The notes beneath the pieces are model-generated. The model worked only from the letters and a program-made list of their open reading frames with translations. It did not search any database and had not been told where the DNA came from. A program made the position numbers and the translations under genes. A stretch of 47,091 nucleotides of DNA, taken from assembly GCA_017416065.1 (NCBI GenBank), contig JAFQDM010000010.1, forward strand, positions 1-47,091, written 5' to 3'. Position 1 is the first letter of the stretch, and every line of letters starts with the position of its first letter. Source of the stretch: Ruminococcus sp. GTDB lineage: Bacteria; Bacillota; Clostridia; Oscillospirales; Acutalibacteraceae. Shown here one piece after another: positions 10,903 through 40,184 of the stretch.

Positions 10903-11198
10903 GAATTTTGTCCTTCCTTTTTGATCCTGTTGATGGCTGTAAGGTAGCCGCCTGTGCCGTAGTTCAGGCATTTGTTTACTCTGCAGATGGTGGCGGTGCT
11001 CACGCTTGTCTGCTTGTTTACCTCCTGGTAGTTCTGCCCTGAGTTCAGAAGCCTTGCAACGTGGAACCTCTGTGCCATTTCTCTGATTTCCTTTATGGTG
11101 CATACGTCCTCAAGGAATTGATAGAGCTCCTCTGTGTTTTCCATAGAGAGGATGGCCTCAAGGAGAGCGTCGGTCTCGGCATTTCGGAAATTGCTCAT
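10899..11198 (-). CDS. yerC: YerC/TrpR-family transcriptional regulator heading the his operon
   Basis: A 99-residue all-helical protein of the TrpR-like YerC/YecD family. The helix-turn-helix is in YQEVNKQTSVSTATICRVNK, preceded by IREMAQRFHVARLL. YerC-type proteins have been proposed as histidine-responsive repressors (HisR) in Firmicutes. Being first in a complete his operon, directly under its promoter, supports autoregulated control of histidine synthesis, though ligand and operator are inferred. The ATG at 11198 is chosen because AAGGA lies upstream and the alternative in-frame extension would begin upstream of the predicted transcription start. Confidence 0.85.
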   Translation of the reverse strand: MSNFRNAETDALLEAILSMENTEELYQFLEDVCTIKEIREMAQRFHVARLLNSGQNYQEVNKQTSVSTATICRVNKCLNYGTGGYLTAINRIKKEGQNS

Positions 11199-11268
11199 AA
11201 ACCTAATCCTTTCTGTTAGTTGGTGCAATATATAATTATAGATATATACTACAATAAATATGTTTGAC

Positions 11269-11297
11269 ATTTTACCACTATATCACGCTAAAGTCAA
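11269..11297 (-). promoter_or_regulatory. Promoter of the his operon
   Basis: On the minus strand TTGACT (complement of 11292-11297) and TAAAAT (complement of 11269-11274) are 17 bases apart. The start of transcription would be near 11262, giving a leader of about 64 bases. That is too short for a T-box riboswitch or a classical attenuator. A 10-bp palindrome, TATAATTATA, at 11231-11240 inside the leader is the only symmetric element near the promoter and is a weak candidate operator for YerC. Confidence 0.75.
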
Positions 11298-11443: not shown

Positions 11444-12139
11444 TTAAAGCTCTATGGGGATACGGGAGTCTGCTTTGATGGAATCGGGGGTGACTATGCA
11501 GTCAAGAGCAAGTATCTTTACACCTGATTTTTGGGCTTTTCTCAGGGCATCTCCAAAGGCTTTATGGGTAAGGTCGTTGGGGATAAGCTTGTGCACACCC
11601 TTCATCTGAATTACAAAGAGAATATATGCTTCAAAGCCCTGCGTTCTGCATTTGATAAGCTCCTCAACGTGCTTTACTCCGCGTTCTGTGGGAGCATCGG
11701 GAAACATGGCAATTCCTGAGTTTTCCTGGGTTACTCCCTTGACCTCCATAAAGACCTTTCTTCCTCTGTCCTCTATATAAAAATCAAAGCGGGAGCTTGC
11801 GTACTTTACCTCTCTTTTTATGATGGCATCAGGGGAGAAAAGGGGACTTTCTCCAAGCCATTCCCGGGCTACGTCGTTGGGAATCTGTGAATCCAGATTA
11901 ATGAGTAAAGATGGGAGATTTCCCCGTTCTTTTTCTGCCGTCACAAGGTCGTATTTTGTTTTTCTTGCAGGGTTTTCCGAGGTTTCCAGATACACGGTGC
12001 AGCCCTCTCTCAGAAGCTCCTTGCATCTGCCAGTATTCTTCACGTGTACGGTGTGCACCTCGCCGTTTATTTCCACGTTTGCAATAAAGCGGTTTGGCCT
12101 TTGGAGGAACACTCCCTTGACTATATTCTTGTACTTCAT
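11444..12139 (-). CDS. sfsA: SfsA family DNA/RNA-binding nuclease-like protein
   Basis: A 231-residue protein matching the SfsA (sugar fermentation stimulation) family. Typical segments are RPNRFIANVEINGEVHTVHVKNTGRCKELL at the N-terminus (an OB-like part), then FDFYIEDRGRKVFMEVKGVT and FPDAPTERGVKHVEEL, which form the PD-(D/E)XK-like core. The E-V-K and D-A-P-T-x-R motifs are intact. SfsA was first linked to maltose gene expression in E. coli, but its biochemical role here cannot be told from sequence. It is transcribed alone, divergently from the redox operon. Only a modest GTGG binding site precedes the ATG. Confidence 0.9.
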   Translation of the reverse strand: MKYKNIVKGVFLQRPNRFIANVEINGEVHTVHVKNTGRCKELLREGCTVYLETSENPARKTKYDLVTAEKERGNLPSLLINLDSQIPNDVAREWLGESPLFSPDAIIKREVKYASSRFDFYIEDRGRKVFMEVKGVTQENSGIAMFPDAPTERGVKHVEELIKCRTQGFEAYILFVIQMKGVHKLIPNDLTHKAFGDALRKAQKSGVKILALDCIVTPDSIKADSRIPIEL

Positions 12140-12247
12140 AATCCACGCTCTTTGTTTTAAATTTAAATGTTTTTATGCTATGCAATTATATCGTATTACA
12201 TAAAATAAATCAACGGTAACGGGATTAATTTGTATGAAACAAAGAAG

Positions 12248-12265
12248 TTGTTAAATTTTTGACAA
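12248..12265. promoter_or_regulatory. Candidate Rex (NADH/NAD+ redox) operator
   Basis: The 18-base site TTGTTAAATTTTTGACAA matches the clostridial Rex consensus TTGTTAA-N4-TTAACAA at all but one fixed position and is nearly palindromic. It lies between the divergent sfsA and dehydrogenase genes, upstream of the -35 at 12282 and overlapping a possible second promoter whose -10 is at 12273-12278. Rex sites commonly control fermentative dehydrogenase genes, which suits the operon that follows. No rex gene is in the window. Confidence 0.65.
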
Positions 12266-12281
12266 ATCACTTTATAATGTA

Positions 12282-12310
12282 TTGCACCGGGATAAAGTTT
12301 GTGATATAAT
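12282..12310 (+). promoter_or_regulatory. Promoter of the redox operon
   Basis: TTGCAC (12282-12287) and an extended -10, TGATATAAT with TATAAT at 12305-12310, are separated by 17 bases. Transcription would start near 12317, leaving a 114-base leader. A second -10 (TATAAT, 12273-12278) has only a poor -35 and would overlap the Rex-like site, so two promoters are possible. Confidence 0.7.
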
Positions 12311-12337
12311 TAACACACTGTAAAATGCGTAAATTCG

Positions 12338-12373
12338 GGCAAAAATATTTTTGCCGCTTTTTTTGCGGCTTTT
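12338..12373 (+). promoter_or_regulatory. Leader hairpins before the malate/lactate dehydrogenase gene
   Basis: Two overlapping structures share the bases GCC at 12353-12355. One is the perfect 18-base palindrome GGCAAAAATATTTTTGCC (12338-12355). The other is GCCGC (12353-12357) with GCGGC (12365-12369) around seven T, followed by TTTT, which resembles a short terminator. They cannot both form, so the leader could attenuate transcription. No known riboswitch motif was recognised. Confidence 0.4.
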
Positions 12374-12430
12374 GCAGAGATCTAACTAAGTATTTAATGA
12401 TTTATTTTACAAGCTTAAAGGAGAACCGTT

Positions 12431-13375
12431 ATGAACAAAATCACAGTTATCGGCTCAGGTAATGTAGGCGCTACAATTGCGTACACATTCACCGTCAACG
12501 GTCTTTGCTCAGAGATCGTCCTGATCGACATTAACAAAGAGAAGGCTGTGGGAGAAGCGCTTGACATTCGTCAGGGCACACCCTTCTGCCATTCCTGCTC
12601 GGTATATGCAGGTGATTTTCAGGATGCTGCAGGCTCAGATATTGTAATTCTGACCTCAGGTGTGGGCAGAGCTCCCGGTCAGAGCAGGCTTGACCTTGCG
12701 CAGACAAACATTGAGATCACAAAGAGCATCATTCCTCAGATCACACGCTATGCTCCTGATGCTATCTACGTTATCGTAAGCAATCCCGTTGACGTGCTGA
12801 CTTACGCATTCTGCAAGGTTTCCGGTCTTCCTCAGGAGAGAGTCATCGGCTCAGGTACCATTCTTGATACCTCCAGGCTCAGAGCAAGGCTTTCTGAGTA
12901 CTACTTCCTGAATCAGCGTAACGTGCACGCATACGTTCTGGGCGAGCACGGTAACTCAAGCTTTGTTCCCTGGTCACTTTGCAATATTTCAAACGTTCCC
13001 ATTGAGGAGTACCGCAGAAGCGTTCAGCGCACAGATGTTATCTACCCCGAGCTTAACTACGATGAGGTGGAGGAATACGTTAAGAAGTCAGGCGCAGAGG
13101 TTATCTCCCGCAAGGGCGCAACCTTCTATGCAGTTTCTGTATCTGTTGCACATCTTTGCAAATGTATTCTCTCAGGTGTTGACACAACCCTGACTGTTTC
13201 CACAATGCTCAACGGTGAGTACGGAATCAGCGATGTTTGCCTGAGCCTTCTCAACGTTGTAGGCAACAACGGAGCACACAGCAAGGTTCTGCTTCCTCTT
13301 ACGGATGAAGAGATAGTGAAGCTCCGTACAAGCGCAGACACGCTCAAGGAAGTTATCAAGAGCGTTAACATCTAA
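12431..13375 (+). CDS. Lactate/malate dehydrogenase family protein, predicted malate dehydrogenase
   Basis: A 314-residue NAD-dependent 2-hydroxyacid dehydrogenase. The Rossmann motif GSGNVGA lies at residues 8-14, and Asp33 (LIDINKE) fits NAD rather than NADP. Catalytic Arg86, Asp146, Arg149 and His173 (GEHGNSS) are present. Overall it resembles L-lactate dehydrogenase, but the substrate-specificity position (Gln102 in classical numbering) is Arg80 here, in SGVGRAPGQSR. An arginine there is the hallmark of malate dehydrogenase, and the Q102R exchange is known to convert a Bacillus lactate dehydrogenase to malate activity. Thr in KGATFY stays lactate-like. The next gene is fumarase, so I infer that oxaloacetate is reduced to malate. 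It is the first gene of the redox operon and has a strong AGGAGA site. Lactate dehydrogenase remains possible. Confidence 0.85.
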   Translation: MNKITVIGSGNVGATIAYTFTVNGLCSEIVLIDINKEKAVGEALDIRQGTPFCHSCSVYAGDFQDAAGSDIVILTSGVGRAPGQSRLDLAQTNIEITKSIIPQITRYAPDAIYVIVSNPVDVLTYAFCKVSGLPQERVIGSGTILDTSRLRARLSEYYFLNQRNVHAYVLGEHGNSSFVPWSLCNISNVPIEEYRRSVQRTDVIYPELNYDEVEEYVKKSGAEVISRKGATFYAVSVSVAHLCKCILSGVDTTLTVSTMLNGEYGISDVCLSLLNVVGNNGAHSKVLLPLTDEEIVKLRTSADTLKEVIKSVNI

Positions 13376-13428
13376 CGGCTTAGAAAAAATTACTTTTTAC
13401 GATAGATTGTTTTGAAAGGATGACAGAG

Positions 13429-14805
13429 ATGGAATATCGTATTGAACACGATTCAATGGGCGAGGTAAAGGTGCCTGCCGACAAGCTTTGGGGAGCACAG
13501 ACACAGCGCTCCAGCATGAATTTTGAGATCGGTGTGGGCATAGAGACAATGCCCCGTGAGATAATAAATGCCTTTGCAATTCTTAAGAAGGCGGCGGCTA
13601 TGACAAACGCTGAGCTTAAGCCTGAGAAGATGACCCAGGCTAAGCTTTCTGCCATAGCACAGGCTTGCGATGAGGTGCTTGAGGGTAAGCTTGAGGGCAA
13701 CTTCCCCTTGGTTGTGTGGCAGACAGGCTCAGGCACACAGTCAAATATGAATATGAACGAGGTGCTTGCAAACCGCGGCAACCAGATTGCAGGGGAGAAG
13801 CTTCTGCATCCCAATGACGATATCAATATGAGCCAGTCCTCCAACGATACGTTCCCTACGGCAATGCACATTGCGGCTGTGACTATGATAGAGGATAAGC
13901 TCATTCCTGCGGCAGAGGTTCTCATTGATACCTTCAAAAGACTTGAGCAGGAGAATGAGGGCATAGTTAAAAGCGGCAGAACCCACCTGCAGGACGCAAC
14001 TCCCATTACCTTCAGCCAGGAGATAAGCGGTTGGAGGTCAAGCCTTGAGCGTGACGTTGAGATGCTCCGCCTTGCAGTAAAGCCCCTGTGCGAGCTTGCT
14101 CTGGGCGGCACGGCAGTGGGCACCGGACTCAATACCCCCAAGGGCTTTGCAGAGCTTGTAGCACAGAATGTAAAGAAGCTCACAGGTAAGGATTTTGCGA
14201 CAGCAGGCAACAAGTTCCACGCACTTACCTCCAAGGATGAGCTTGTGTTTGCACACGGTGCCATCAAGGCACTTGCCTGCGATATGATGAAGATAGCAAA
14301 CGACGTGCGCTGGCTTGCAAGCGGTCCCAGAGACGGCCTGGGAGAGATATTCATTCCCGAGAACGAGCCCGGCTCCTCCATTATGCCCGGCAAGGTCAAC
14401 CCCACTCAGTGTGAGGCTGTGACCATGGTTGCAGTTCAGGTTATGGGTAACGACGTTGCAGTGGGTATGGCGGCTTCTCAGGGTAACTTTGAGCTTAACG
14501 TGTTTATGCCTGTATGCATTTACAACTTCCTGCAGTCCGGCAGACTCCTCTCTGAGGCAATTCTTTCCTTCAACAAAAACTGTGCTGTGGGCATTGTTGC
14601 AAACCGCGAGAAGATGCACCACAACCTCCACAATTCTCTGATGCTGGTAACTGCACTCAATCCCTACATAGGCTATGAGAATGCGGCTAAAACAGCCAAA
14701 AAGGCATACAAGGACAACATCTCTCTGAAAGAGGCCTGCGTAGAGCTTGGCTTCCTTACTGCAGAGAGATTTGACGAAGTGTTCCATCCCGAAGAGATGG
14801 TTTAA
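13429..14805 (+). CDS. fumC: Class II fumarate hydratase
   Basis: A 458-residue homotetrameric iron-free fumarase that interconverts malate and fumarate in the cytoplasm. Family marks are [46 protein letters not shown] (catalytic His) and the flexible signature loop [20 protein letters not shown] with the catalytic serine. The GSSxMPGKxNPxxxE signature is shared with aspartase, but TQCEA and GTAVGTG fit fumarase better. The ATG at 13429 is chosen because AAAGGA is 8 bases upstream; the ATG at 13420 has no spacing. It sits 53 bases after the dehydrogenase, in a malate-to-fumarate order. Confidence 0.93.
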
Positions 14806-14840
14806 AACCCTACACAAACTTATTTGAGGAGCGTAATCTT

Positions 14841-15632
14841 ATGAAAGTAAGTTATTTTCCCGGATGCACACTCAAGAACAAGGCAAAGATACTTGACGTT
14901 TATGCACGCAGGTGCGCAGAGGTTCTGGGTGTTACTCTGGAAGAAATAGATAATTGGCAGTGCTGCGGAGGTGTTTTTACCTCCAAGGACGAGCCGGGCT
15001 CAAAGCTTTCTTCCGTCCGTGCATTGAAGTTTGCATTTGAGAAGTCTCAGCCTTTGGTTTCCGTTTGCTCAGCATGCCACAACGTGCTCAAGCAGACAAA
15101 CCACCTGATGCAGAGTGATGAGGCATTCTGCACCAAGGTGAACCGCTATATGGCAGAGGATTCAGCCTACGACGGAAGCACTCAGGTTTATCATTACCTG
15201 GAGCTTTTGCGGGATGTGGTAGGCTTTGACAAGATAAGGGAAGCAGTAGTTAACCCCTTAAAGGGCAGAAAGATAGCCCCTTACTACGGATGCCTTCTGC
15301 TCAGACCTTCCTCAGTTATGCAGATGGACGACCCTGAGAATCCCACCATCTTTGAGGATTTGCTCAGAGCATTGGGTGCAGAGGTTGTTGTATCCTCTAT
15401 GCGCAACGAATGCTGCGGCGGATACGTTACCATGGAAAAGCCCGAATTTGCAAAGAAAAAGAGTCTTGACATCACAAGCAATATGCAGGCCATGGGTGCT
15501 GATATGATCGCTACTGCCTGCCCTCTTTGCAAGTATAATCTTGACAAGAATTCAGACGCAATTCCCACGGTTTATTTCACAGAGCTTCTGGCAGAGGCAC
15601 TGGGTGTTAAGGAGGAATGCGACAATGCATAA
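14841..15632 (+). CDS. hdrB: HdrB-like heterodisulfide reductase subunit B (CCG-domain protein)
   Basis: A 263-residue protein with two cysteine-rich CCG domains that in HdrB each bind a noncubane [4Fe-4S] cluster. The first domain has YFPGCTLKNKA, WQCCGG (about residue 41) and CSACHN (about 79). The second has YYGCLLLRPSS, NECCGGY (about 193) and CPLCKYN (about 231). In methanogens HdrB is the site where CoM-S-S-CoB is reduced. Here no coenzyme M or B genes are seen, so another acceptor must apply. The start has GAGGAG upstream. The end overlaps hdrC by 8 bases. Confidence 0.92.
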   Translation: MKVSYFPGCTLKNKAKILDVYARRCAEVLGVTLEEIDNWQCCGGVFTSKDEPGSKLSSVRALKFAFEKSQPLVSVCSACHNVLKQTNHLMQSDEAFCTKVNRYMAEDSAYDGSTQVYHYLELLRDVVGFDKIREAVVNPLKGRKIAPYYGCLLLRPSSVMQMDDPENPTIFEDLLRALGAEVVVSSMRNECCGGYVTMEKPEFAKKKSLDITSNMQAMGADMIATACPLCKYNLDKNSDAIPTVYFTELLAEALGVKEECDNA

Positions 15633-16017
15633 CGACAGCAGAAAGATTGCAGATGAGATCATCCTCAGAAGCGGAGTTAACCCCCGCAGATGTATGAAGT
15701 GCGGCAAGTGCTCCGGCACCTGCCCTGCTTATGAGGAGATGGAATATCATCCTCATGAGTTTGTATATATGGTAGAGTCGGGAGAGGTAGAGCCTCTGCT
15801 TAACTCAAAATCCCTTTATATGTGTCTTTCCTGCTTTGCTTGTGTGGACAGATGCCCCCGTGGGGTAGAGCCTGCAAAGCTTGTTGAGGCTGTGCGCAAT
15901 GCTTACCTCAGACAGCAGGACAATAAGCATATGAACGCAGACGATGTGCCTGCAAAGCTTGACGACGACCTGCCTCAGCAGGCAATAGTAAGCGCATTTA
16001 GAAAATACAGAAAGTAA
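15625..16017 (+). CDS. hdrC: HdrC-like heterodisulfide reductase subunit C
   Basis: A 130-residue iron-sulfur protein with two [4Fe-4S] motifs: CMKCGKCSGTCP at about residues 23-34 and CLSCFACVDRCP at about 70-81. This is the size and layout of HdrC, which carries electrons from HdrA to HdrB. The ATG at 15625 follows GGAGG by 9 bases and lies inside the 3' end of hdrB, so both subunits are probably made in equal amounts. It is soluble, with no membrane segment. Confidence 0.92.
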   Translation: MHNDSRKIADEIILRSGVNPRRCMKCGKCSGTCPAYEEMEYHPHEFVYMVESGEVEPLLNSKSLYMCLSCFACVDRCPRGVEPAKLVEAVRNAYLRQQDNKHMNADDVPAKLDDDLPQQAIVSAFRKYRK

Positions 16018-16032
16018 GGAGGAGAAAACAAT

Positions 16033-18027
16033 ATGCAGAGAATTGGCGTATTTGTATGCTGGTGCGGAAGCAACATTGCAGGCACGGTTGACGTGCAGGC
16101 AGTTTCAGAGGCTCTCAAAACCGAGCCCGGAGTTGTTTTTTTCACCAATTATCAATATATGTGCTCACAGGCAGGACAGGACATTATCATTGATGCCGTC
16201 AAGGAGCATAACCTGACAGGCATCGTTGTGTGCTCCTGCTCACCCCGTATGCACGAGGCAACCTTCCGCAAAACTGCGGCGGCTGCAGGACTTAACCCTT
16301 ATATGGTAGAGATAGCAAACATCCGCGAGCAGTGCTCCTGGGTACATAAGGATATGGCATCAGGCACAGAAAAAGCAATTATCCTGGGCAAGGCCGCAAT
16401 TGCAAAGGTAAACCTGAATGCTCCCCTCACTCCCGGTGAGTCCCCGGTTACAAAGAGAGCTCTTGTTATAGGCGGAGGTATTGCAGGAATCCAGACTGCA
16501 CTTGATATTGCAGATGCAGGCTTCCCCGTTGATATTGTGGAAACAAAGCCCACCATCGGCGGCAAGATGGCTCAGCTGGACAAAACCTTCCCGACCCTTG
16601 ACTGTGCGGCTTGTATCCTCACTCCCAAAATGGTTGACGTGGCTCAGAACGACAAGATCCGCATCTTCTCCTACAGCGAGGTGCAGGAGATCAAGGGCTT
16701 TGTGGGTAACTTTGACGTTACCATTAAGAAGAAAGCAAGATTTGTGAAAGAAGAGATCTGCACAGGCTGCGGCGCTTGCGTTGAAAAGTGCCCTATGAAG
16801 AAGATTCCCAACGAGTTCAACCTGGGTATGGACAACCGCCGTGCGATCTATATTCCCTTTGCTCAGGCAGTTCCCAAGGTTGCAACCATCGACCCCTCTG
16901 CCTGTAATATGCTGAAAAACGGTAAGTGCGGTGTGTGCTCTAAGGTTTGTACCGCAGGCGCCATTGACTATACTCAGAAAGACGAGTTTATTAACGAAAA
17001 GTACGGTGCGATCGTGGTTGCAACAGGCTTCAATCCCATCAGTATGGATAAGTTTGACGAGTATGCTTACAATCAGTCCAAGGACGTAATCACCTCTTTG
17101 GAATTTGAAAGACTCACAAATGCTGCAGGTCCCACTCAGGGCAAGCTTCTGAGACCCTCTGACCTGGAGCATCCCCACACCATTGTGTTTGTTCAGTGTG
17201 TGGGCTCACGTTGTGCCGCTTGTGCAGAGAAGGGCAAGGAGTACTGCTCCAAGATCTGCTGTATGTACACGGCAAAGCACGCAATGCTTGTAAGGGATAA
17301 ATACCCGGATACTGAGGTTTACGTGTTCTACATTGACGTGAGAACTCCCGGCAAGAACTTTGATGAATTCTACCGCAGAGCTGTGGAGGAATACGGAGTT
17401 AAGTACATCAAGGGTATGGTTGGTAAGGTCACTCCCGAGGGCAACAAGCTCAAGGTCAGAGCCTCTGACCTGATTGCAGGCAAGCAGCTGAATATTGATG
17501 CAGACCTGGTGGTCCTTGCGGTTGCTATTGAGCCCGATAAATCAGCCCGACCCCTTGCAACAATGCTCACAGCAAGTATGGACACAAACGATTTCTTCAC
17601 AGAGGCTCACCCAAAGCTCAGGCCTGTAGAGAGCCCCACGGCAGGTGTGTTCCTCTCAGGTGCATGCCAGGGACCCAAGGATATTCCCGAGACGGTATCC
17701 CAGGCATCAGCCGCCGCTTCTAAGGTTATCGGACTTCTGGTAAAGGATAAGCTCAAGGGTAATCCCTGCATTGCAAGTGCAAACGAGCTTATGTGCAACG
17801 GTTGCTCCACTTGTGCAAATGTCTGCCCTTACGGAGCGATCACCTATATTGATAAAGAATTCCCCATGTTTGACAGAACGATGCAGACCCGTCGAGTGGC
17901 TCAGGTCAACCCGGCAGTTTGCCAGGGCTGCGGTGCCTGCACGGTAGCCTGTATGTCAGGTGCTATGGATTTAAGAGGCTTTGCAAGCTCACAGATCATT
18001 GCGGAGGTGGATGCTATATGCAGGTAA
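16033..18027 (+). CDS. hdrA: HdrA-like FAD iron-sulfur subunit, predicted bifurcating flavoprotein
   Basis: A 664-residue HdrA, the subunit that holds the bifurcating FAD in MvhADG-HdrABC. The N-terminal domain has the unusual cluster motif region GVFVCWCGSNIAG. The thioredoxin-reductase-like FAD domain begins at GGGIAGIQTALD (about residue 152). Typical HdrA features follow: LDCAACILTPKMVDV, a ferredoxin motif CTGCGACVEKCP (about 241), a cysteine cluster CGVCSKVC, and QCVGSRCAACAEKGKEYCSKICC. Two C-terminal [4Fe-4S] motifs complete it: CNGCSTCANVCP (about 590) and CQGCGACTVACM (about 634). No domain is missing, and the length is typical. It has a strong AGGAGG site and overlaps flxD by 10 bases. 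Confidence 0.95.
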   Translation: MQRIGVFVCWCGSNIAGTVDVQAVSEALKTEPGVVFFTNYQYMCSQAGQDIIIDAVKEHNLTGIVVCSCSPRMHEATFRKTAAAAGLNPYMVEIANIREQCSWVHKDMASGTEKAIILGKAAIAKVNLNAPLTPGESPVTKRALVIGGGIAGIQTALDIADAGFPVDIVETKPTIGGKMAQLDKTFPTLDCAACILTPKMVDVAQNDKIRIFSYSEVQEIKGFVGNFDVTIKKKARFVKEEICTGCGACVEKCPMKKIPNEFNLGMDNRRAIYIPFAQAVPKVATIDPSACNMLKNGKCGVCSKVCTAGAIDYTQKDEFINEKYGAIVVATGFNPISMDKFDEYAYNQSKDVITSLEFERLTNAAGPTQGKLLRPSDLEHPHTIVFVQCVGSRCAACAEKGKEYCSKICCMYTAKHAMLVRDKYPDTEVYVFYIDVRTPGKNFDEFYRRAVEEYGVKYIKGMVGKVTPEGNKLKVRASDLIAGKQLNIDADLVVLAVAIEPDKSARPLATMLTASMDTNDFFTEAHPKLRPVESPTAGVFLSGACQGPKDIPETVSQASAAASKVIGLLVKDKLKGNPCIASANELMCNGCSTCANVCPYGAITYIDKEFPMFDRTMQTRRVAQVNPAVCQGCGACTVACMSGAMDLRGFASSQIIAEVDAICR

Positions 18028-18452
18028 ATGAATACAAACCCCTTATTGTGGCATTCTGCTGCAACTGGTGCTCCTATGCAGGTGCAGACCTGGCCGGCAA
18101 CAACCGTCTGAACTACCCTGCCGACGTAAAGATCATCCGTGTGCCCTGCTCCTGCAGAGTAAACCCCATGTTTATCCTGCGTGCTTTTCAGCGCGGTGCA
18201 GACGGTGTTATCATCTGCGGTTGCCATCCCGGCGACTGCCACTACACATCAGGCAACTACTACACAAGACGCCGTATGGCTCTGCTGTTCTCTATGCTTG
18301 ATTTCCTTGGAATCGAGCGCGAGAGAACCCGTCTTGAGTGGGTATCTGCCGCAGAGGGCGCAAAGTTTGCCGCTACAATGAACGATTTTGCAGAGACTGT
18401 AGCCGCCTTGGGCGAGAACAAGAGATTGGAGGATCTGAGATGCAAAAAGTAA
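18018..18452 (+). CDS. flxD: FlxD/MvhD-like iron-sulfur subunit
   Basis: A 144-residue protein of the MvhD family, which passes electrons from a hydrogenase (Mvh) or flavin oxidoreductase (Flx) to HdrA through a [2Fe-2S] cluster. Conserved cysteines are in FCCNWCSYAGAD, VPCSCRVNP and CGCHPGDCHY. The ATG at 18018, inside the end of hdrA, has GGAGG 10 bases upstream. No hydrogenase genes accompany it, and the next three genes are FlxC, FlxB and FlxA types, so the electron donor is probably NAD(P)H rather than hydrogen. Confidence 0.9.
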   Translation: MQVNEYKPLIVAFCCNWCSYAGADLAGNNRLNYPADVKIIRVPCSCRVNPMFILRAFQRGADGVIICGCHPGDCHYTSGNYYTRRRMALLFSMLDFLGIERERTRLEWVSAAEGAKFAATMNDFAETVAALGENKRLEDLRCKK

Positions 18453-19432
18453 ACCGTGACGTGCTTCTGGAGAAAGCCGCCGCTATGCTTGACGCAGGTG
18501 AGGTTCAGGCTGTGCTTGGCTGGGGTGCAGGCGAATTTGCATACGACGTGACTCCCCGTGTGTTTGAGACATCAGACGAACTGCGTGCAGACTTTGTATG
18601 GAACGATTTCTGCGGTGCAAACCTTTCCAAGTACCTTGTTTCCAAAACAAAGAAGCTTGAGGGCAAGCTCCTTGTATTCCTTAAGCCCTGCGATACCTAC
18701 AGCTTCAACCAGCTCCTGACAGAGCACAGATTTGAGAGAGAAAAGGTATACGCAGTTGCTGTTCCTTGTGAAGGAATGGCAGATGTTCAGAAACTGAAGG
18801 CTCTGGCAGGCGACGGAATCAGCAGTATTGAGAGCACAGACTCAGGCTTTTCCGTTACAACTATCTACGACGATGCACCTGTTGAGGTAAAGGGTGCAGA
18901 CGTACTTCTTGAGAAATGTGCAAACTGCAAGAGTCGCAAGCACGTGGCATACGACGAGCTCCTGGGCGATGAGGGAGAGGTGCTTGATTCCAACCGCTTT
19001 GATGAGGTTGAGAGGATCGAGGCCATGACTTCCGAGGAGCGATTTGCATTCTGGCAGGGTGAGCTTTCACGCTGTATCCGTTGCAACGCTTGCCGCGACG
19101 TTTGTCCTGCTTGCACCTGCGAGAAATGCGTGTTTGATAACCCGAACTCAGGGGCTGAGAACAAGGCTCCCACAACCTCTTTTGAGGAGCAGATGTTCCA
19201 CGTTATCCGCGCCTTTCACGTTGCAGGCAGATGCACAGACTGCGGAGAATGCTCCAGGGTCTGCCCTCAGAACATTCCCCTGCATCTGCTCAACAGAAAG
19301 TTCATCAAGGATATCAACACCTTCTACGGCGAGTATCAGGCAGGAGCCGAGGAAGGCTCCAGAGCACCTCTTGTGGATTACACACTTGAGGATCTGGAAG
19401 CAGAAGATGTATTTAAGAAGGAGGCAGAGTAA
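18440..19432 (+). CDS. flxC: FlxC-like 4Fe-4S dicluster electron-transfer subunit
   Basis: A 330-residue iron-sulfur protein. The N-terminal part resembles the beta subunits of formate dehydrogenase or F420 hydrogenase (LVFLKPCDTYSFNQLL, LLEKCANCKSRK). The C-terminal ferredoxin part holds CIRCNACRDVCPACTCEKC (about residue 212) and CTDCGECSRVCP (about 265). Its place between the MvhD-like gene and the AsrA/AsrB-like pair is what is known for the four-gene flx cluster in Desulfovibrio, where FlxB and FlxC relay electrons. The letter assignment (C versus B) rests on order. It starts 13 bases inside flxD with GGAGG upstream. Confidence 0.82.
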   Translation: MQKVNRDVLLEKAAAMLDAGEVQAVLGWGAGEFAYDVTPRVFETSDELRADFVWNDFCGANLSKYLVSKTKKLEGKLLVFLKPCDTYSFNQLLTEHRFEREKVYAVAVPCEGMADVQKLKALAGDGISSIESTDSGFSVTTIYDDAPVEVKGADVLLEKCANCKSRKHVAYDELLGDEGEVLDSNRFDEVERIEAMTSEERFAFWQGELSRCIRCNACRDVCPACTCEKCVFDNPNSGAENKAPTTSFEEQMFHVIRAFHVAGRCTDCGECSRVCPQNIPLHLLNRKFIKDINTFYGEYQAGAEEGSRAPLVDYTLEDLEAEDVFKKEAE

Positions 19433-19435
19433 GAT

Positions 19436-20461
19436 ATGCGCAAATGTTCACTGAGTAAGCTTACCGACCTCTTTCAGAAGATAAATGAAAGTGCAAGTTT
19501 GTATCTGCCTGCAACAGATAATGCAGGCGGAGCAGTGTATACCAAATGGGCAGACGGTGTGGAGTATCTTGACGTGCTCAACACAGTCAGAAGCCCCAAG
19601 GATTTCTTCTTCCCTCAGAGTGAGAACCTTATGGAGTTTAAACTCAAGGGCAAGAATATTGAGATCCTGGACATCAGAGAAGAATCAGAAGATTTTGTGA
19701 TCTTCGGCGTTCGAGCTTGTGATGTTAAGAGCTTTGAGGTGCTGGACAGAGTGTTCCTTTCAGAGCCTGTGGACAGCTATTATCAGAACCGCAGAGCACA
19801 CGCAGTTATCATCTCTATGGCTTGCATGCGCCCTGCAGATACTTGCTTCTGCACAGCCTTCGGCATTGATGCCGCAGAGCCTGCAGGCGATGTTTCTGCC
19901 TGGAAGACAGAGTGCGACCTCTACCTTAAAGCCAACACGGAAAAGGGTGCTCAGCTTCTTGCAAAGCTTTCAAACCTTACAGAGGAATGTGATGATTCAG
20001 AAGTATCCCCCTTGCAGGAGAAGATCCGCAATATTATGAAGAAGCTTCCTCTTGAGGGAATATCGTTAGAAAACTTCGGCAAGGGCAAGACAAAGGAGTA
20101 CTTTGATTCTCCCCTTTGGACAGAGCTTTCAGAGGCTTGCCTGGGATGCGGTACCTGCACCTTTGTGTGTCCCACCTGCCAGTGCTACGATATCAAAGAT
20201 TTTGACACAGGCTCAGGGGTCATCCGTTACCGTTGCTGGGATTCCTGTATGTACTCTGATTTTACAAAGATGGCACACGGAAACTCCAGAAACACTCAGG
20301 TTGAGAGATTCCGCCAGCGCTTTATGCACAAGCTTGTGTATTATCCCGAGAATAACGATGGGCTCTTCAGCTGTGTCGGCTGCGGCAGATGCCTTTCCAA
20401 GTGCCCCATCTCCATGAATATAGTAAAAGTTATGAAAGCTTTGGGAGGAGAGAAGAAATGA
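19436..20461 (+). CDS. flxB: FlxB-like subunit related to anaerobic sulfite reductase subunit A
   Basis: A 341-residue protein of the AsrA-like 4Fe-4S family. The N-terminal part includes FVIFGVRACDVKSFEVLDRVF, a typical segment of these proteins, followed by CMRPADTCFCTAFG with further cysteines. Two C-terminal ferredoxin motifs are CLGCGTCTFVCPTCQCYD (about residue 232) and CVGCGRCLSKCP (about 314). It pairs with the AsrB-like flavoprotein encoded next, and the ATGA overlap with that gene implies coupling. No siroheme subunit AsrC is present, which argues against a sulfite reductase. Confidence 0.85.
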   Translation: MRKCSLSKLTDLFQKINESASLYLPATDNAGGAVYTKWADGVEYLDVLNTVRSPKDFFFPQSENLMEFKLKGKNIEILDIREESEDFVIFGVRACDVKSFEVLDRVFLSEPVDSYYQNRRAHAVIISMACMRPADTCFCTAFGIDAAEPAGDVSAWKTECDLYLKANTEKGAQLLAKLSNLTEECDDSEVSPLQEKIRNIMKKLPLEGISLENFGKGKTKEYFDSPLWTELSEACLGCGTCTFVCPTCQCYDIKDFDTGSGVIRYRCWDSCMYSDFTKMAHGNSRNTQVERFRQRFMHKLVYYPENNDGLFSCVGCGRCLSKCPISMNIVKVMKALGGEKK

Positions 20462-21291
20462 ACACGGTAAACGATACTCTTATTCCCGTTTTAGGTGTTA
20501 TCACAGATGTAAGAATAGATACCCCGGACGTAAAGACCTTTAGGGTCGTAACTCCCGACGGCAAAAAAGCCTTTGACCACAAGCCGGGTCAGTGCGCAAT
20601 GCTCTCTATCCCCGGTGTGGGTGAGGCTATGTTCTCCATAACCTCATCTCCTACAAATACGGAGTTTATGGAGTTTTCCATTAAGAAGTGCGGATGCGTT
20701 ACCGATTGGCTCCACCAGGCAGAGGCAGGTCAGCAGATCACCATCCGCGGACCTTACGGCAGACCCTTCCCCGTGGATACGGAATTCAAGGGCAAGGACC
20801 TGCTCTTTATTGCAGGCGGTATCGGCCTTGCGCCCTTGCGCTCAGTCATCAACTATTGCCGCGACAACCGCGCCGACTACGGCACCATTGACATTGTGTA
20901 CGGCTCACGCAGTATGGATGACCTTGTTGACTACAAGGAGATAGTTGACGAGTGGACAAAGGACACGGACGTGCACGTTCACCTTACCATCGACAGAGAG
21001 CAGCAGGGCTGGGACGGACACGTAGGCTTTGTTCCTTCTTACGTTAAGGAGCTGGGCTTTGACACAAACAAAACGGCAATCATCTGCGGACCTCCCATTA
21101 TGATCAAGTTCACCCTTGACGCTATGATAGAGTTAGGCTTTGACAAAACTCAGGTCTACACCACCATGGAGCTTCGTATGAAGTGCGGTGTGGGTAAATG
21201 CGGCCGTTGCAACATTGGTGCAAAGTACGTGTGCAAAGACGGTCCCGTCTTCCGTTGCGACGAGCTGGATGAGCTTCCCGATGAGTACTGA
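20458..21291 (+). CDS. flxA: FlxA-like NAD(P)H:acceptor flavin oxidoreductase
   Basis: A 277-residue ferredoxin-reductase-fold protein that should oxidise NAD(P)H for the complex. The FAD domain includes EAMFSITSSPTN and TIRGPYGRPF. The nucleotide domain includes FIAGGIGLAPLRSVI and CGPPIMIKF. A C-terminal PyrK-type [2Fe-2S] loop, MKCGVGKCGRCNIGAKYVC, completes the AsrB/HydG-like layout. The ATG at 20458 overlaps the flxB stop, with GGGAGGAG upstream. Choice of NADH over NADPH cannot be settled from the motifs; NADH is assumed from characterised Flx-Hdr systems. Confidence 0.9.
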   Translation: MNTVNDTLIPVLGVITDVRIDTPDVKTFRVVTPDGKKAFDHKPGQCAMLSIPGVGEAMFSITSSPTNTEFMEFSIKKCGCVTDWLHQAEAGQQITIRGPYGRPFPVDTEFKGKDLLFIAGGIGLAPLRSVINYCRDNRADYGTIDIVYGSRSMDDLVDYKEIVDEWTKDTDVHVHLTIDREQQGWDGHVGFVPSYVKELGFDTNKTAIICGPPIMIKFTLDAMIELGFDKTQVYTTMELRMKCGVGKCGRCNIGAKYVCKDGPVFRCDELDELPDEY

Positions 21292-21308
21292 TAAAGGAGA
21301 GAAATGAT

Positions 21309-21983
21309 ATGGATAATATGGTTAACATTTTTCTGTTCGGAAAAAAATACGAAGTTCCCTCAAACCTTACTATAATGCGTGCCATGGAGTACGCAGGCTA
21401 TGAGCTTGTGCGCGGTTGCGGGTGCAGAAACGGCTTCTGCGGAGCTTGCGCCACGATCTACCGTATTGCAGGAGACAGAGAGCTCAGAGCCTGCCTTGCC
21501 TGCCAGACAAAGGTAGAGGATAATATGTACATTGCAACCCTGCCTTTCTTCCCGCTTGTAAAGCAGGTTTACGATATGGAGAAGATCTCTGCTTCAGAGC
21601 AGGTCATGATGCAGCTTTACCCTGAGATCTATGCCTGCATTGGCTGTAATGCCTGCACAAAGGCCTGCACACAGGGCTTGAACGTTATGCAGTACATAGC
21701 CTATGCTCAGCGCGGTGACTTTGCATCTTGTGCAGAGGAGTCCTTTGACTGCGTAATGTGCGGTGTGTGCTCCACACGTTGTCCTGCAGGAATCTCTCAT
21801 CCTCAGGTTGCAATGCTTGCCCGCAGAATCAACGGCAAGTACCTGGCTCCCAAGTGTGCACATCTTGAGGACAGAGTGCAGGAGATCAAGGACGGCACCT
21901 TTACAGAGCTTATCGAGGCTTTGATGCAGAAGCCCGTAGAGGAAATGAAAGAGCTCTACAATACACGAGAGATAGAAAAGTAA
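21309..21983 (+). CDS. Fumarate reductase iron-sulfur subunit (FrdB-like)
   Basis: A 224-residue iron-sulfur protein built like the SdhB/FrdB subunit. The N-terminal plant-type [2Fe-2S] domain has cysteines at about residues 39, 44, 47 and 62 (CRNGFCGACATIY...CLAC). The C-terminal part has CIGCNACTKACTQG and CVMCGVCSTRCPAG for further clusters. In CIGCNACTKAC the spacing is that of a [4Fe-4S] site. It lacks the HdrB-like CCG domain that is fused to TfrB in the methanogen thiol:fumarate reductase; here that function is a separate gene, hdrB. It has AAAGGAGAG before the ATG and precedes frdA by 13 bases. Confidence 0.87.
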   Translation: MDNMVNIFLFGKKYEVPSNLTIMRAMEYAGYELVRGCGCRNGFCGACATIYRIAGDRELRACLACQTKVEDNMYIATLPFFPLVKQVYDMEKISASEQVMMQLYPEIYACIGCNACTKACTQGLNVMQYIAYAQRGDFASCAEESFDCVMCGVCSTRCPAGISHPQVAMLARRINGKYLAPKCAHLEDRVQEIKDGTFTELIEALMQKPVEEMKELYNTREIEK

Positions 21984-21996
21984 GGAGGGGCAGAAA

Positions 21997-23595
21997 ATGT
22001 ATTCAGAACAGTTTATGACATCACTTAAGGCGGTAGAGGCCGCAAGAGAAGCAAACATTGCCCTTGAGCCTCAGCGTATGACTGCTCAGCAGAAGGAGGA
22101 GCTTCTGGCTGCCTACCATCCTGATTACAGAAAAGATCAGTTTACAGAACTTAAAATCGGTCCCAATAAGGGCGACAAGGTGCCCCACGAGCTTGCAGAA
22201 ACTCTGCAGGCACACGCAAGAATAAAGGCAGAGGACGTAGACCTGAGCGCTCCCGATTACGACGTTGACGTGCTGATTATCGGCGGCGGCGGTGCAGGTG
22301 CATCTGCGGCGGTTGAGGCACACGAGGCAGGAGCCAACGTTATGATAGTTACAAAGCTTCGCATTGGTGATGCCAACACTATGATGGCAGAGGGCGGAAT
22401 TCAGGCGGCTGACAAGAGCAACGACAGCCCTGCAATCCATTTTGTGGATGCATTCGGCGGCGGACACTTTGCAGCAAAGAGAGAGCTCCTCAGAAAGCTT
22501 GTGTGCGATGCTCCCGAGGCCATCCATTGGCTCTCAGAGCTGGGCGTTGAGTTTGACAAAGATGCAGATGGCAATATGATAACCACCCACGGCGGCGGTA
22601 CCTCCAGAAAGCGTATGCACGCCGCAAAGGACTACTCAGGGGCAGAGATCATGCGTACTCTGCGTGATGAAGTTTTAAACAGACAGATTCCTGTTGTGGA
22701 TTTCACCTCCGCAATAGAGCTTATACTTGACGACAAGGGCAGAGCTGCCGGCGCTGTGCTTATGAATATGGAAACAGGCGAGCTTCTTGTTGCAAGAGCC
22801 AAGACCGTTATCATCGCCACAGGCGGTGCAGGCAGAATGCATTACCAGGGATTCCCTACCTCTAACCACTACGGCGCTACAGCAGACGGCCTGGTGCTGG
22901 GCTACAGAGCAGGCGCCAAGCTCCTCTATGCAGAGACCCTGCAGTATCATCCCACAGGTGCCGCATTCCCGGAGCAGATCTTTGGTGCACTTGTAACCGA
23001 GAAGGTGCGTTCCCTGGGAGCAAAGCTTGTAAACGTTAAGGGAGAGGTGTTTATGCATCCTCTGGAGACCCGTGACGTTGCGGCGGCTTCTATCATCCGC
23101 GAATGCTCAGACAGAGAAAACGGTGTGAGCACAGGCGAGGGTGTGGGCGTATGGCTTGACACTCCCATGATCGAGAAGATCGGCGGAGAGGGCACCATTA
23201 TGAAGAGGATCCCCGCTATGTGGAGAATGTTTGACAAGTACGGCATCGACATCAGAAAAGAGCCCATCCTGGTTTATCCCACACTTCACTACCAGAACGG
23301 CGGACTTGACATTACAGAGGACGGAATGACCACAAACGTTGAGAATCTCTACGTTGCAGGTGAGGCTGTGGGAGGAATCCACGGCAGAAACCGTCTGATG
23401 GGCAACTCTTTGCTGGATATTATCGTGTTCGGCAGAAGTGCAGGCAAGAATGCCGCACAGCGTGCAAAGAGCGTAGAGCAGGGCACACTTACCCTTGAGC
23501 ATATAGAGAAGTTTGAGCAGGAGATTGCAAATGCCGGAATCGTGACGGATGCAGTCAGCCCCAAGCTTCTGCCCAAATATGCAAGGGAAGTTTGA
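21997..23595 (+). CDS. Soluble fumarate reductase flavoprotein (FrdA-like)
   Basis: A 532-residue flavoprotein predicted to reduce fumarate to succinate. The FAD-binding GGGGAGASAAVEAHEAG starts near residue 97, after an unusual 90-residue N-terminal extension. Catalytic and substrate residues of the family are present: QYHPTG (His318), TEKVR (Glu335, Arg338), TRD (Arg359), LHYQNGG (His431) and GRNRLMGNS (Arg466). The position of the covalent-FAD histidine is Asn127 (NTMMAEGG), so FAD should be bound noncovalently, as in aspartate oxidase. Aspartate oxidase is the main alternative, but no nadA or nadC is near, and the paired FrdB-like subunit and fumC favour fumarate reductase. No membrane-anchor subunit is encoded. 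Confidence 0.88.
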   Translation: MYSEQFMTSLKAVEAAREANIALEPQRMTAQQKEELLAAYHPDYRKDQFTELKIGPNKGDKVPHELAETLQAHARIKAEDVDLSAPDYDVDVLIIGGGGAGASAAVEAHEAGANVMIVTKLRIGDANTMMAEGGIQAADKSNDSPAIHFVDAFGGGHFAAKRELLRKLVCDAPEAIHWLSELGVEFDKDADGNMITTHGGGTSRKRMHAAKDYSGAEIMRTLRDEVLNRQIPVVDFTSAIELILDDKGRAAGAVLMNMETGELLVARAKTVIIATGGAGRMHYQGFPTSNHYGATADGLVLGYRAGAKLLYAETLQYHPTGAAFPEQIFGALVTEKVRSLGAKLVNVKGEVFMHPLETRDVAAASIIRECSDRENGVSTGEGVGVWLDTPMIEKIGGEGTIMKRIPAMWRMFDKYGIDIRKEPILVYPTLHYQNGGLDITEDGMTTNVENLYVAGEAVGGIHGRNRLMGNSLLDIIVFGRSAGKNAAQRAKSVEQGTLTLEHIEKFEQEIANAGIVTDAVSPKLLPKYAREV

Positions 23596-23641
23596 GCTGT
23601 AATCAAAAGTTGATTTATTTAAATATTAAGGAGATGGCGTA

Positions 23642-24901
23642 ATGTCTTTATTTGGAGGAGTGATCTCCATTTCCGGAGTTTCTTTCTTCTTGTTCTGTGT
23701 GTTTGCCGTGCTGCTTGCAGGCTACGCACTGGGTCGAATCACCATAAAGGGTGTTTCTTTGGGTGACGCAGGTGTGTTCATTGTGGCTTTGCTCTTTGGC
23801 GCATTTTTCTGCTCAGGACTTGCAACGGATACCTTTGGTATGAAGCCTCTTGAGTTCAGCGGAGAGTGGCTGGAGCTTCTTGAGAGTTTTGGACTTATCC
23901 TTTTTGTTACAAGCGTGGGCTTTATTGCAGGACCCAAGTTCTTTGCAAATATGAAGAAAAACTTCAAGTCCTACGTTCTTTTGGGACTTATCATCATCAT
24001 TGCAGGCGGACTTGCCGCTTTTGGATGTATAATGCTGGGCGAGCACGTGTTTGGCTACGGTGCAGAGTCCATCACAGATATTGACGGCTTTGTGGCAATG
24101 ATAGTGGGACTGCTCTCAGGCTCACTCACATCAACCCCTGCATTCTCCGCCGCAAAGGCAACTGTAGCACCTGAGTACCAGAGCCTTGTTTCCGTAGGTT
24201 ACGGCATAGCTTACATATTCGGCGTTGTGGGTGTTGTGCTCTTTGTTCAGCTTATTCCCAAGCTTACAAAGGCAGATATGGCAAAGGAACGTGCGGCAAT
24301 TGCAATTAAAGAAAGCGAAACGGCAAAGGCTAAAAAGGAGAGGACCTTCCACTTTGACCATATGGGTGTTTGCGTGTTCTCCCTTGCAGCTATTCTGGGC
24401 ACATTCGTAGGCAAGATCAAGATCCCCATGAGCGCTCAGGGACTTTCGGGAACTTGCTTCTCTTTGACCACCACAGGCGGTTGCCTGCTTGTGTCCCTTT
24501 TGCTGGGACACTTCGGAGGCTTTGGCAAAGTAAGCCTTATGCCCAAGGAATCCACCCTTAAGCTCTTCCGTGAGCTTGGACTTGTGCTTTTCCTTGTGGG
24601 AGCAGGTATCCCCGGCGGAATGGACTTTGTTGCAAACTTCAACGGAATGTACTTCGTATACGGAATCATTATGACGATTGTTCCCATGATACTGGGCTTC
24701 CTGTTTGCAAAGTATGTCTTAAAGCTTAAGCTTCTCAACAACTTAGGCTCCATCACAGGCGGTATGACATCTACCCCTGCACTGGGTACGCTCATAGGTG
24801 TTGCAGGCACAGAGGACGTGGCAGCAGCTTATGCGGCCACCTATCCCATTGCACTAATTGTGGTTGTGCTTGTGTCCCAGTTCCTTATACTTATGTTCTA
24901 A
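23642..24901 (+). CDS. AspT/YidE-type (AAE family) transporter, candidate succinate exporter
   Basis: A 419-residue integral membrane protein with about 10-12 hydrophobic segments and an internal duplication. The paired motifs GSLTSTPAFSAA (about residue 160) and GGMTSTPALGTL (about 376) mark the aspartate:alanine exchanger family. A short, charged cytoplasmic loop (about 210-240) replaces the TrkA-C domains found in many members. The family includes AspT, which swaps aspartate for alanine, and SucE, the succinate exporter of Corynebacterium. As last gene of an oxaloacetate-to-succinate operon, succinate export (or dicarboxylate exchange) is the likely role; the substrate is inferred from context. 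AAGGAG lies before the ATG, and a terminator follows. Confidence 0.85.
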   Translation: MSLFGGVISISGVSFFLFCVFAVLLAGYALGRITIKGVSLGDAGVFIVALLFGAFFCSGLATDTFGMKPLEFSGEWLELLESFGLILFVTSVGFIAGPKFFANMKKNFKSYVLLGLIIIIAGGLAAFGCIMLGEHVFGYGAESITDIDGFVAMIVGLLSGSLTSTPAFSAAKATVAPEYQSLVSVGYGIAYIFGVVGVVLFVQLIPKLTKADMAKERAAIAIKESETAKAKKERTFHFDHMGVCVFSLAAILGTFVGKIKIPMSAQGLSGTCFSLTTTGGCLLVSLLLGHFGGFGKVSLMPKESTLKLFRELGLVLFLVGAGIPGGMDFVANFNGMYFVYGIIMTIVPMILGFLFAKYVLKLKLLNNLGSITGGMTSTPALGTLIGVAGTEDVAAAYAATYPIALIVVVLVSQFLILMF

Positions 24902-24923
24902 TTTAATATTGATGTAAATAATC

Positions 24924-24968
24924 AGAGCAAGAACAGAAGGGTTTATCCTTTTGATCTTGCTCTTTTGT
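24924..24968 (+). terminator. Terminator of the redox operon
   Basis: AGAGCAAGA (24924-24932) pairs with TCTTGCTCT (24955-24963), with an inner CAGAAGG/CCTTTTG stem, and is followed by TTTGTTTTGG. It closes the 12-gene unit that starts at 12431. I saw no other strong terminator inside that unit. Confidence 0.85.
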
Positions 24969-25009
24969 TTTGGAATATATTTAAGTGAAATAATTATTAA
25001 AATATTGTA

Positions 25010-25060
25010 TTGACAAATTTTGGCGAGTATTGTATTATTGTGTTAATACAGTAATACAAT
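25010..25060 (+). promoter_or_regulatory. Promoter with overlapping multi-repeat operator
   Basis: TTGACA (25010-25015) and TATTAT (25033-25038) are 17 bases apart. Overlapping the -10 and start site is an inverted repeat with 12-base arms, ATTGTATTATTG (25029-25040) and CAGTAATACAAT (25049-25060), 11 of 12 positions paired. A nested pair TGTATTA (25031-25037) / TAATACA (25044-25050) and a second direct TAATACA (25052-25058) give three copies of one half-site. The GntR-family protein encoded downstream is the natural candidate to bind it. Confidence 0.7.
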
Positions 25061-25076
25061 CTGCGAGGTGACTGTT

Positions 25077-25556
25077 ATGAGGCTTAGATTCATATTTACG
25101 CTATTATCCCTTATCCTTGTCGGTATACCGAGTTTAAACGGATGCTTTGCTTTTCTTGAGGACGAGGTTGTTGTTTCTCTTGGTGAATATACTCATAAGG
25201 AGTTCTACACAAGCGGCGGATTTCAGGATTATACAGACTATGCAAAGTATCATTACGATGATGTGGATTTAAAGGATAACCCTTATCTTAAACAGGTGAA
25301 TGATGAAAATATTTCTGAGTTTATTGATTTCCTGGAGAACTTTGAAAGCTGGGTATATATTCATGCAGAGTCAGAGCCTGAGGGTGAACTTGCTGTGAGT
25401 TATGATTTCAACACAGATATTATCTCAGAGGATGATTACGTTTACATGGATAATCGCTACGATGGAGATGATGAACTATTTGAATTCTCTAATTATAATC
25501 TATACTTTTTTGACTCACAGAGCAAAATACTATATTTCTTTCATAATAATATTTAA
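25077..25556 (+). CDS. Small acidic putative lipoprotein, unknown function
   Basis: A 159-residue protein starting MRLRFIFTLLSLILVGIPS, with LNGC as a likely lipobox, so probably anchored outside the membrane. The mature part is very rich in Asp, Glu and Tyr (for example DYTDYAKYHYDD and SEDDYVYMDNRYDGDD). No family is recognised. The ATG at 25077 follows GAGGTG by 6 bases; an in-frame GTG at 25068 lacks a binding site. It is the first gene behind the operator-bearing promoter and 73 bases ahead of the GntR gene, so it may be part of that regulon. Base use is more AT-rich than in the preceding redox operon. Confidence 0.75.
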   Translation: MRLRFIFTLLSLILVGIPSLNGCFAFLEDEVVVSLGEYTHKEFYTSGGFQDYTDYAKYHYDDVDLKDNPYLKQVNDENISEFIDFLENFESWVYIHAESEPEGELAVSYDFNTDIISEDDYVYMDNRYDGDDELFEFSNYNLYFFDSQSKILYFFHNNI

Positions 25557-40125: not shown

Positions 40126-40184
40126 ATAATCAATATAGTTGTTATGTTTAGTAACTATTATTTGCGTAATATGGAGTGAGAATT

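Follow-up and report, generated by a model that had tools for sequence, protein, structure and literature searches.

We analysed 47,091 nucleotides of Ruminococcus sp. (family Acutalibacteraceae; contig JAFQDM010000010.1 of assembly GCA_017416065.1), referred to here as the window, and all coordinates are those of its forward strand. Positions 12431..24901 hold an operon of twelve genes which, with a probability of roughly 0.65, encodes a soluble NADH-dependent fumarate reductase that saves energy as reduced ferredoxin, within a reductive arm from oxaloacetate to succinate. This reading builds on the observed gene content, order and linkage, on the cluster ligands, on the absence of quinone-type and TfrB-type features, and on the rnf genes of the host. 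Formation of a complex, electron transfer from HdrB to FrdB, bifurcation, the direction of the reaction and the export of succinate are inferred.

In the proposed scheme, oxaloacetate would be converted through malate and fumarate to succinate, which would leave the cell. A hydride from NADH would be accepted by FlxA and its electrons passed through FlxB, FlxC and FlxD to the FAD of HdrA, where each pair would be split. One electron would go down to ferredoxin, while the other would cross HdrC and the non-cubane clusters of HdrB, enter FrdB at its HdrC-like domain and move on by way of the [2Fe-2S] cluster of that subunit to FrdA, whose non-covalent FAD would reduce fumarate. The net reaction would be 2 NADH + fumarate + ferredoxin(ox) -> 2 NAD+ + succinate + ferredoxin(red). 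Reduced ferredoxin could then pass its electrons to NAD+ via Rnf with ion pumping, so that Rnf would take the role of a quinone chain in building an ion gradient. An earlier note on this DNA had argued that the standard potentials allow such coupling, and with the values given in the consulted part of PMC5861303 (-320 and +33 mV) the scheme is indeed favourable. The host genome contains rnfC, rnfD, two NuoF/HydB-like genes and nadABC; a UbiA-family prenyltransferase, present in 14/14 control genomes, was not found in it, a soft absence at 84.8% completeness.

The large driving force would also suit a plain NADH:fumarate reductase, in which both NADH electrons pass through Hdr-Flx to FrdAB and ferredoxin is not reduced; the part of PMC8578096 available to us describes an HdrA complex for which reduction of ferredoxin was not demonstrated. 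We consider such an enzyme quite unlikely, as seven Hdr and Flx subunits would be costly compared with a short flavoprotein and the arrangement would be wasteful alongside Rnf. In addition, the HdrA cluster motifs, compared by eye with 5odc_A, are kept, with one other cysteine lost.

Conservation of the hdrBCA-flxDCBA-frdBA block

Among 197 genomes of the same order, searched for FrdB at E <= 0.001 and for HdrA at E <= 1e-60, 169 gave some FrdB match, with true FrdB in 38 (373 to 511 bits); the rest of those listed scored no higher than 38.2 bits over short stretches, mostly of ferredoxin type. The earlier note had proposed the gene order as a check, and the block hdrBCA-flxDCBA-frdBA was found intact, in the same order and strand, at 34 of the 37 loci outside the window, or 34 of the 35 testable ones (presence of neighbouring genes, here and in the phylum set described below, was judged by BLAST at thresholds of 1e-8 and 1e-5, inside the fetched stretch only). 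Two exceptions are cut by a contig end (L046, L050), and the third (L060, in genome G179 of the same family) has frdBA alone. HdrA was detected in 39 genomes, 37 of which also have FrdB (Fisher 2e-36, relatedness not corrected), G179 being the genome with FrdB and no HdrA. FrdB was missing from G142, whose contig carries mdh-fumC-hdrBCA and breaks off shortly after flxD, and from G096, whose HdrA shows 49% identity. The repetition of the block order across family codes is more than would be expected by chance.

A named collection held at least 572 stretches encoding an FrdB relative. Of the best 80 of these, all with a flxA match, 57 have enough flank, and the full block is present in 57/57. 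Their sources, where titled, are mainly ruminants, also horse and chicken, and the organisms are mostly metagenome-assembled genomes (MAGs) labelled 'Clostridia' or Oscillospiraceae. Full blocks with FrdB identity of 79-81% also occur in MAGs titled Avitreponema, Treponema and Bacteroidaceae (L259, L264, L270), either through horizontal transfer or because the contigs were mis-binned.

A distinct HdrB type accompanies FrdB

In the phylum set of 398 genomes, a search for HdrB at E <= 1e-45 gave 72 hits in 66 genomes, all of which were read at the cluster motifs. All of 47 aligned rows have the ten cluster cysteines (C9, C41, C42, C76, C79, C151, C191, C192, C227, C230). Thr after the first cluster cysteine, combined with Phe or Tyr at position 46, marks 28 of the 72 hits, from 28 genomes and 11 family codes; 27 of these 28 also have Tyr195. 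We refer to them as Thr-type HdrB, as distinct from the other 44, which have Ser or another non-Thr residue and lack Phe/Tyr at position 46 (an alignment gap falls there in several). Thr-type HdrB is present in 28 of the 39 FrdB-positive genomes, with 11 lacking it at this threshold, and in 0/359 FrdB-negative ones (Fisher 2e-34, again without correction for relatedness). Seven loci with hdr-flx in trans have Thr-type HdrB as well. Exclusive co-occurrence is the strongest sign that this type would serve FrdB and not a general disulfide.

It is conceivable, at somewhat less than even odds, that Thr-type HdrB gave up disulfide reduction and became a fixed wire from HdrC to the HdrC-like domain of FrdB. 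HdrB-FrdBA would then be an output module taking different inputs (Flx, a double-HdrA type, unknown partners), and quinone-independent bifurcation to fumarate would be modular and widespread.

Two other markers were tried and rejected. CCxxG loops shortened by two residues relative to methanogen HdrB turned out to be common in bacterial HdrB, and a score gap (190.8 to 179.7 bits) did not hold as the border between HdrB types, as residue reading showed the hit of G286, at 174 bits, to be Thr-type.

Anatomy of FrdB and FrdA

FrdB has 224 residues, and its part beyond the [2Fe-2S] domain is an HdrC-like domain in which a second [4Fe-4S] motif replaces the quinone-side [3Fe-4S], with Cys151 standing where E. 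coli has Val208 (76/76). FrdA has Asn127 at the position of the covalent-FAD histidine (75/75). Two further E. coli FrdA positions are not kept: R114 is Arg in 6/75 and F116 is retained in 0/75. No hydrophobic 19-mer is present in any of the 11 enzyme subunits, which agrees with the two-subunit reductase without membrane anchor described in the earlier note.

Alternatively, Hdr-Flx could reduce ferredoxin together with a free disulfide or a DsrC-like carrier, and FrdAB could be a thiol:fumarate reductase drawing on the thiol through HdrB. The top NCBIfam matches of the two subunits, both below cut-off, are TfrA for FrdA (338.8 of 718 bits) and TfrB for FrdB (38.1 of 385), HdrB retains its ten cluster cysteines and the HdrB fold, and a DsrC-like protein is named as an alternative route in the consulted part of PMC11636981. 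The TfrB model spans FrdB-, HdrC- and HdrB-like parts in one chain, however, and FrdB best matches it over residues 12-95 only. The CCG domain of TfrB serves thiol oxidation; FrdB has no match to this domain (PF02754), which in the window's genome was found in HdrB only. As Thr-type HdrB was also not found without FrdB in the phylum set, we regard carrier coupling as unlikely. A direct wire would explain why FrdB lacks both the CCG part and a quinone-type cluster, and why HdrB is kept with FrdB.

Non-covalent FAD disfavours succinate oxidation. This speaks against the operon running in reverse, with succinate oxidised by confurcation, and the fumarase, malate dehydrogenase and exporter of the operon suit the reductive direction. 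FrdAB could also be an aspartate oxidase-like enzyme, given that FrdA scores 269 bits to L-aspartate oxidase (cut-off 453), but the genome has a separate nadA-nadB-nadC set. We hold either possibility to be highly improbable.

The first gene had been called a malate-type dehydrogenase, and this designation withstood closer reading. Its top NCBIfam score is to L-lactate dehydrogenase (TIGR01771, above cut-off), yet Arg stands at the substrate-specificity position in the window gene and in 21/21 orthologues read (18 by pattern, 3 by eye). At this position Gln indicates lactate and Arg malate or oxaloacetate, so that the enzyme should reduce oxaloacetate. No class I fumarase (PF05683) was found in the window's own genome, in agreement with FumC in the operon. 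The last gene has nine hydrophobic 19-mers, and a match to it lies within the fetched stretch of 18/37 relatives (BLAST); it encodes an AspT/SucE-like transporter, a probable succinate exporter.

Wiring of Frd in other genomes

The FrdB search of the phylum set (E <= 1e-20) found 39 genomes including the window, and the neighbourhoods of the 38 others were read, with neighbours named by one scanned member per BLAST cluster. In 5/38 loci hdr-flx is contiguous with frdBA, and in 7/38 hdrBCA-flx lies at a separate locus (in G380 flxA falls past the contig end, and the frdBA of G286 is also flanked by an FMN-binding/ferredoxin set). Another 5/38 have hdrC-hdrB-frdB(-frdA) without adjoining hdrA or flx (L111 on a 3.8 kb contig), in genomes with 4 to 6 HdrA hits elsewhere each. 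Eleven loci carry hdrCBA and flxD together with genes for a FlxC-like protein and for a second protein of HdrA type, which has 1053-1489 residues in complete copies (L119 and L129 are cut by a contig end). In L116, L117, L118, L121, L125, L126, L128, L131 and L132 the FlxC-like protein is a divergent 4Fe-4S protein, often accompanied by genes for 2-oxoacid:ferredoxin oxidoreductase and succinyl-CoA ligase, and these loci would represent a different input module for frdBA.

No Hdr, Flx or membrane partner adjoins frdBA in 5/38 loci. Among the genomes of these five, in G266, G490 and G571 (one genus) and in G263, neither HdrB (E <= 1e-15) nor HdrA (E <= 1e-60) was found, and G325 yielded HdrA only. 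No HdrA or CCG domain was found in G179, a genome of 1.2 Mb and 99% completeness from the window's own family. Relatives of frdBA adjoin b561-type or NapC-type cytochromes or FMN-binding/ferredoxin sets in L133, L135, L136, L134, L110 and L122, where the Frd module is apparently wired to the membrane. An FrdA tree with wiring labels gave 10 changes for 6 labels (minimum 5); built by a quick method, with 23/73 inner branches open and a very long outgroup branch, it indicates clustering and no firm order of events.

Several points weigh against the proposed coupling. FrdBA occurs without detected HdrA or HdrB in 5/75 relatives examined, 5/38 phylum loci have neighbours linked to the membrane (a cytochrome of b561 or NapC type, an FMN-binding set), and bifurcation to ferredoxin is itself suggested only by homology of HdrA and Flx. 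The first two would fit an arrangement in which frdBA is no more than a neighbour of hdr-flx and is fed by ferredoxin or a different soluble donor. That is improbable in our estimation, given the fixed order and the co-occurrence over family codes, and the small share of genomes without HdrA and HdrB. In the window's order Frd is nearly always bound to Hdr, and elsewhere it is not everywhere so. The earlier note had made the coupling depend on co-occurrence of frdBA and hdr-flx in other genomes; this holds inside the order, although Frd without detected Hdr does exist. Its proposal that Hdr-Flx is wired to FrdAB with joint reduction of ferredoxin finds good support in gene order, co-occurrence, the dedicated HdrB and the anatomy of FrdB as far as the wiring is concerned, whereas the bifurcation continues to be drawn from homology.

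Operon layout and neighbouring features

Families were assigned by scans with domain-family and NCBIfam profiles, several NCBIfam matches being below curated cut-offs (Table 1). The scans confirmed the twelve co-directional genes of the earlier note, including all seven members of FlxABCD-HdrABC. All frames lack internal stops and start with ATG, and a GGAG- or AAGG-like sequence precedes the 11 starts listed. The genes had been described as mostly overlapping, but only 4/11 junctions overlap, and 7/11 have gaps of 3 to 46 bases.

Table 1. Genes and upstream elements of the operon in the window.
Feature	Position	Strand	Basis
mdh: malate dehydrogenase, lactate/malate dehydrogenase fold, Arg80 at specificity position	12431..13375	+	profile scans, residue reading
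fumC: class II fumarase	13420..14805	+	TIGR00979, 711 bits, above cut-off
hdrB: CCG x2, 10 cluster cysteines, Thr-type (C9-T10, F46, Y195)	14841..15632	+	profiles, alignments
hdrC: 4Fe-4S dicluster protein	15625..16017	+	family scans
hdrA: FAD + 4Fe-4S protein, proposed bifurcation site	16033..18027	+	779 bits HdrA2, 682 bits 5odc_A
flxD: MvhD/FlpD family	18018..18452	+	PF02662, 186 bits
flxC: 4Fe-4S protein, Fer4 dicluster	18440..19432	+	family scan, place in block
flxB: Fer4_22	19436..20461	+	family scan
flxA: NAD(P)H/FAD reductase	20458..21291	+	family scans
frdB: [2Fe-2S] domain + HdrC-like domain with two 4-Cys motifs	21309..21983	+	family scans (2Fe-2S, 4Fe-4S dicluster), alignments
frdA: fumarate reductase flavoprotein, FAD_binding_2, Asn127 at FAD-His position	21997..23595	+	profiles, alignment
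AspT/SucE-like transporter (Asp-Al_Ex), probable succinate exporter	23642..24901	+	profiles, hydrophobic segments
Rex-operator-like site, TTGTTAA-N4-TTAACAA, 1 mismatch	12248..12265	+	consensus scan
Promoter-like hexamers	12299..12326	+	9/12 consensus matches, weak

Upstream of mdh, the Rex-like site is the sole match with at most two mismatches in the window to the Rex operator consensus (0.17 expected; at least one in 15/100 shuffles). A Rex N-terminal domain is found in the genome, and the upstream regions of 34 relatives contain such sites with one mismatch in two (L048, L049) and with two mismatches in two (L031, L032); possible control of the operon by Rex is a lead only. The scan for promoter-like sites gave 20 in the region against 12.5 expected. 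A terminator-like hairpin with a T-run (12338-12355) lies between the promoter-like site and mdh and could possibly act in leader attenuation; terminator-like sites in the region are no more frequent than in shuffles. Searches for tRNA genes across the window and for Rfam families in 12000-25100 gave nothing.

Close to the operon, a minus-strand cluster at 9778-11270 encodes a Trp-repressor-family protein and a histidyl-tRNA-synthetase-like (HisZ-type) protein. Further away, a family 5 extracellular solute-binding protein (37618-39606) bears a dockerin domain, an odd pairing. A protein of 1357 residues with BspA-type leucine-rich repeats (40176-44249) comes next, and after it the opposite strand encodes a large serine recombinase (44506-46080).

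Relation to known systems and significance

The Hdr-Flx-Frd coupling is not conceptually new. As far as the consulted parts of PMC7282089 go, the 'succinate operon' of Pseudoclostridium thermosuccinogenes is proposed there as a bifurcating fumarate reductase, in which fumarate reduction is coupled to ferredoxin reduction, and a 2019 preprint of Koendjbiharie and van Kranenburg is cited (reference 15). That operon was up about 4-fold under CO2 limitation, not significantly for every subunit, and by its published description, not by sequence, it resembles the window: its tags run from a fumarase through Flx-Hdr (RS03360-30) and a pair of Frd genes to a putative succinate transporter. Genetic access to P. 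thermosuccinogenes has been reported (PMC9044749). The window adds the malate dehydrogenase at the front, and its lineage is probably from the gut.

Similarly, passages of PMC6315080 and PMC11636981 put forward that in symbionts Flx-Hdr feeds electrons to a Tfr-like reductase, either directly or through carriers. In the reductive tricarboxylic acid cycle clusters of tubeworm symbionts and Thioflavicoccus, Tfr genes are interspersed with flx-hdr and direct transfer to fumarate reductase is suggested; tfrAB expression departed from the rest of the cluster (PMC11636981). In contrast to the presumably fermentative reductive arm of the window, these belong to carbon-fixing Gammaproteobacteria with korABCD. 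The reference list of PMC5861303 includes a 2014 study of Desulfovibrio alaskensis that, by title, links fumarate reduction, Hdr-Flox and Rnf.

All seven subunits are shared by name with the FlxABCD-HdrABC of Desulfovibrio, reportedly concerned with ethanol metabolism (Ramos 2015, by title) and linked to a disulfide/DsrC acceptor; the window differs in its HdrB type and in FrdBA. Methanogen TfrAB, the closest NCBIfam match to FrdBA, is likewise soluble and anchor-free, but has the HdrB part fused into the TfrB chain; in the window this HdrB part is a separate subunit. Quinol:fumarate reductases have an anchor, a third, [3Fe-4S] cluster in FrdB and the covalent FAD histidine, none of which is found here, and HdrB remains below the curated cut-off of the SdhE anchor profile typical of 8-methylmenaquinol:fumarate reductase (135 of 500 bits).

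The statement of the earlier note that no characterised enzyme has this composition stands within the literature searched for a purified or characterised one, but the consulted parts of PMC7282089 and PMC6315080 already contain both the composition and the hypothesis. New here is that, among the 398 phylum genomes, Thr-type HdrB was found in FrdB-positive ones only. The HdrB signature, the HdrC-like FrdB domain and the range of wiring were not met in the prior-work passages at hand, with no search aimed at them by name.

The nine-gene block, the HdrB signature and the anatomy of FrdB offer handles for the choice of residues and genomes, and the same features could serve as a metagenome marker setting this system apart both from other Hdr and from quinone-linked Frd. 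In gut and rumen, fumarate acts as a hydrogen sink, and a fermenter that has no quinone chain would otherwise forfeit the energy released when it is reduced. If our reading is true, these bacteria would conserve that energy as reduced ferredoxin and then, through Rnf, as an ion gradient.

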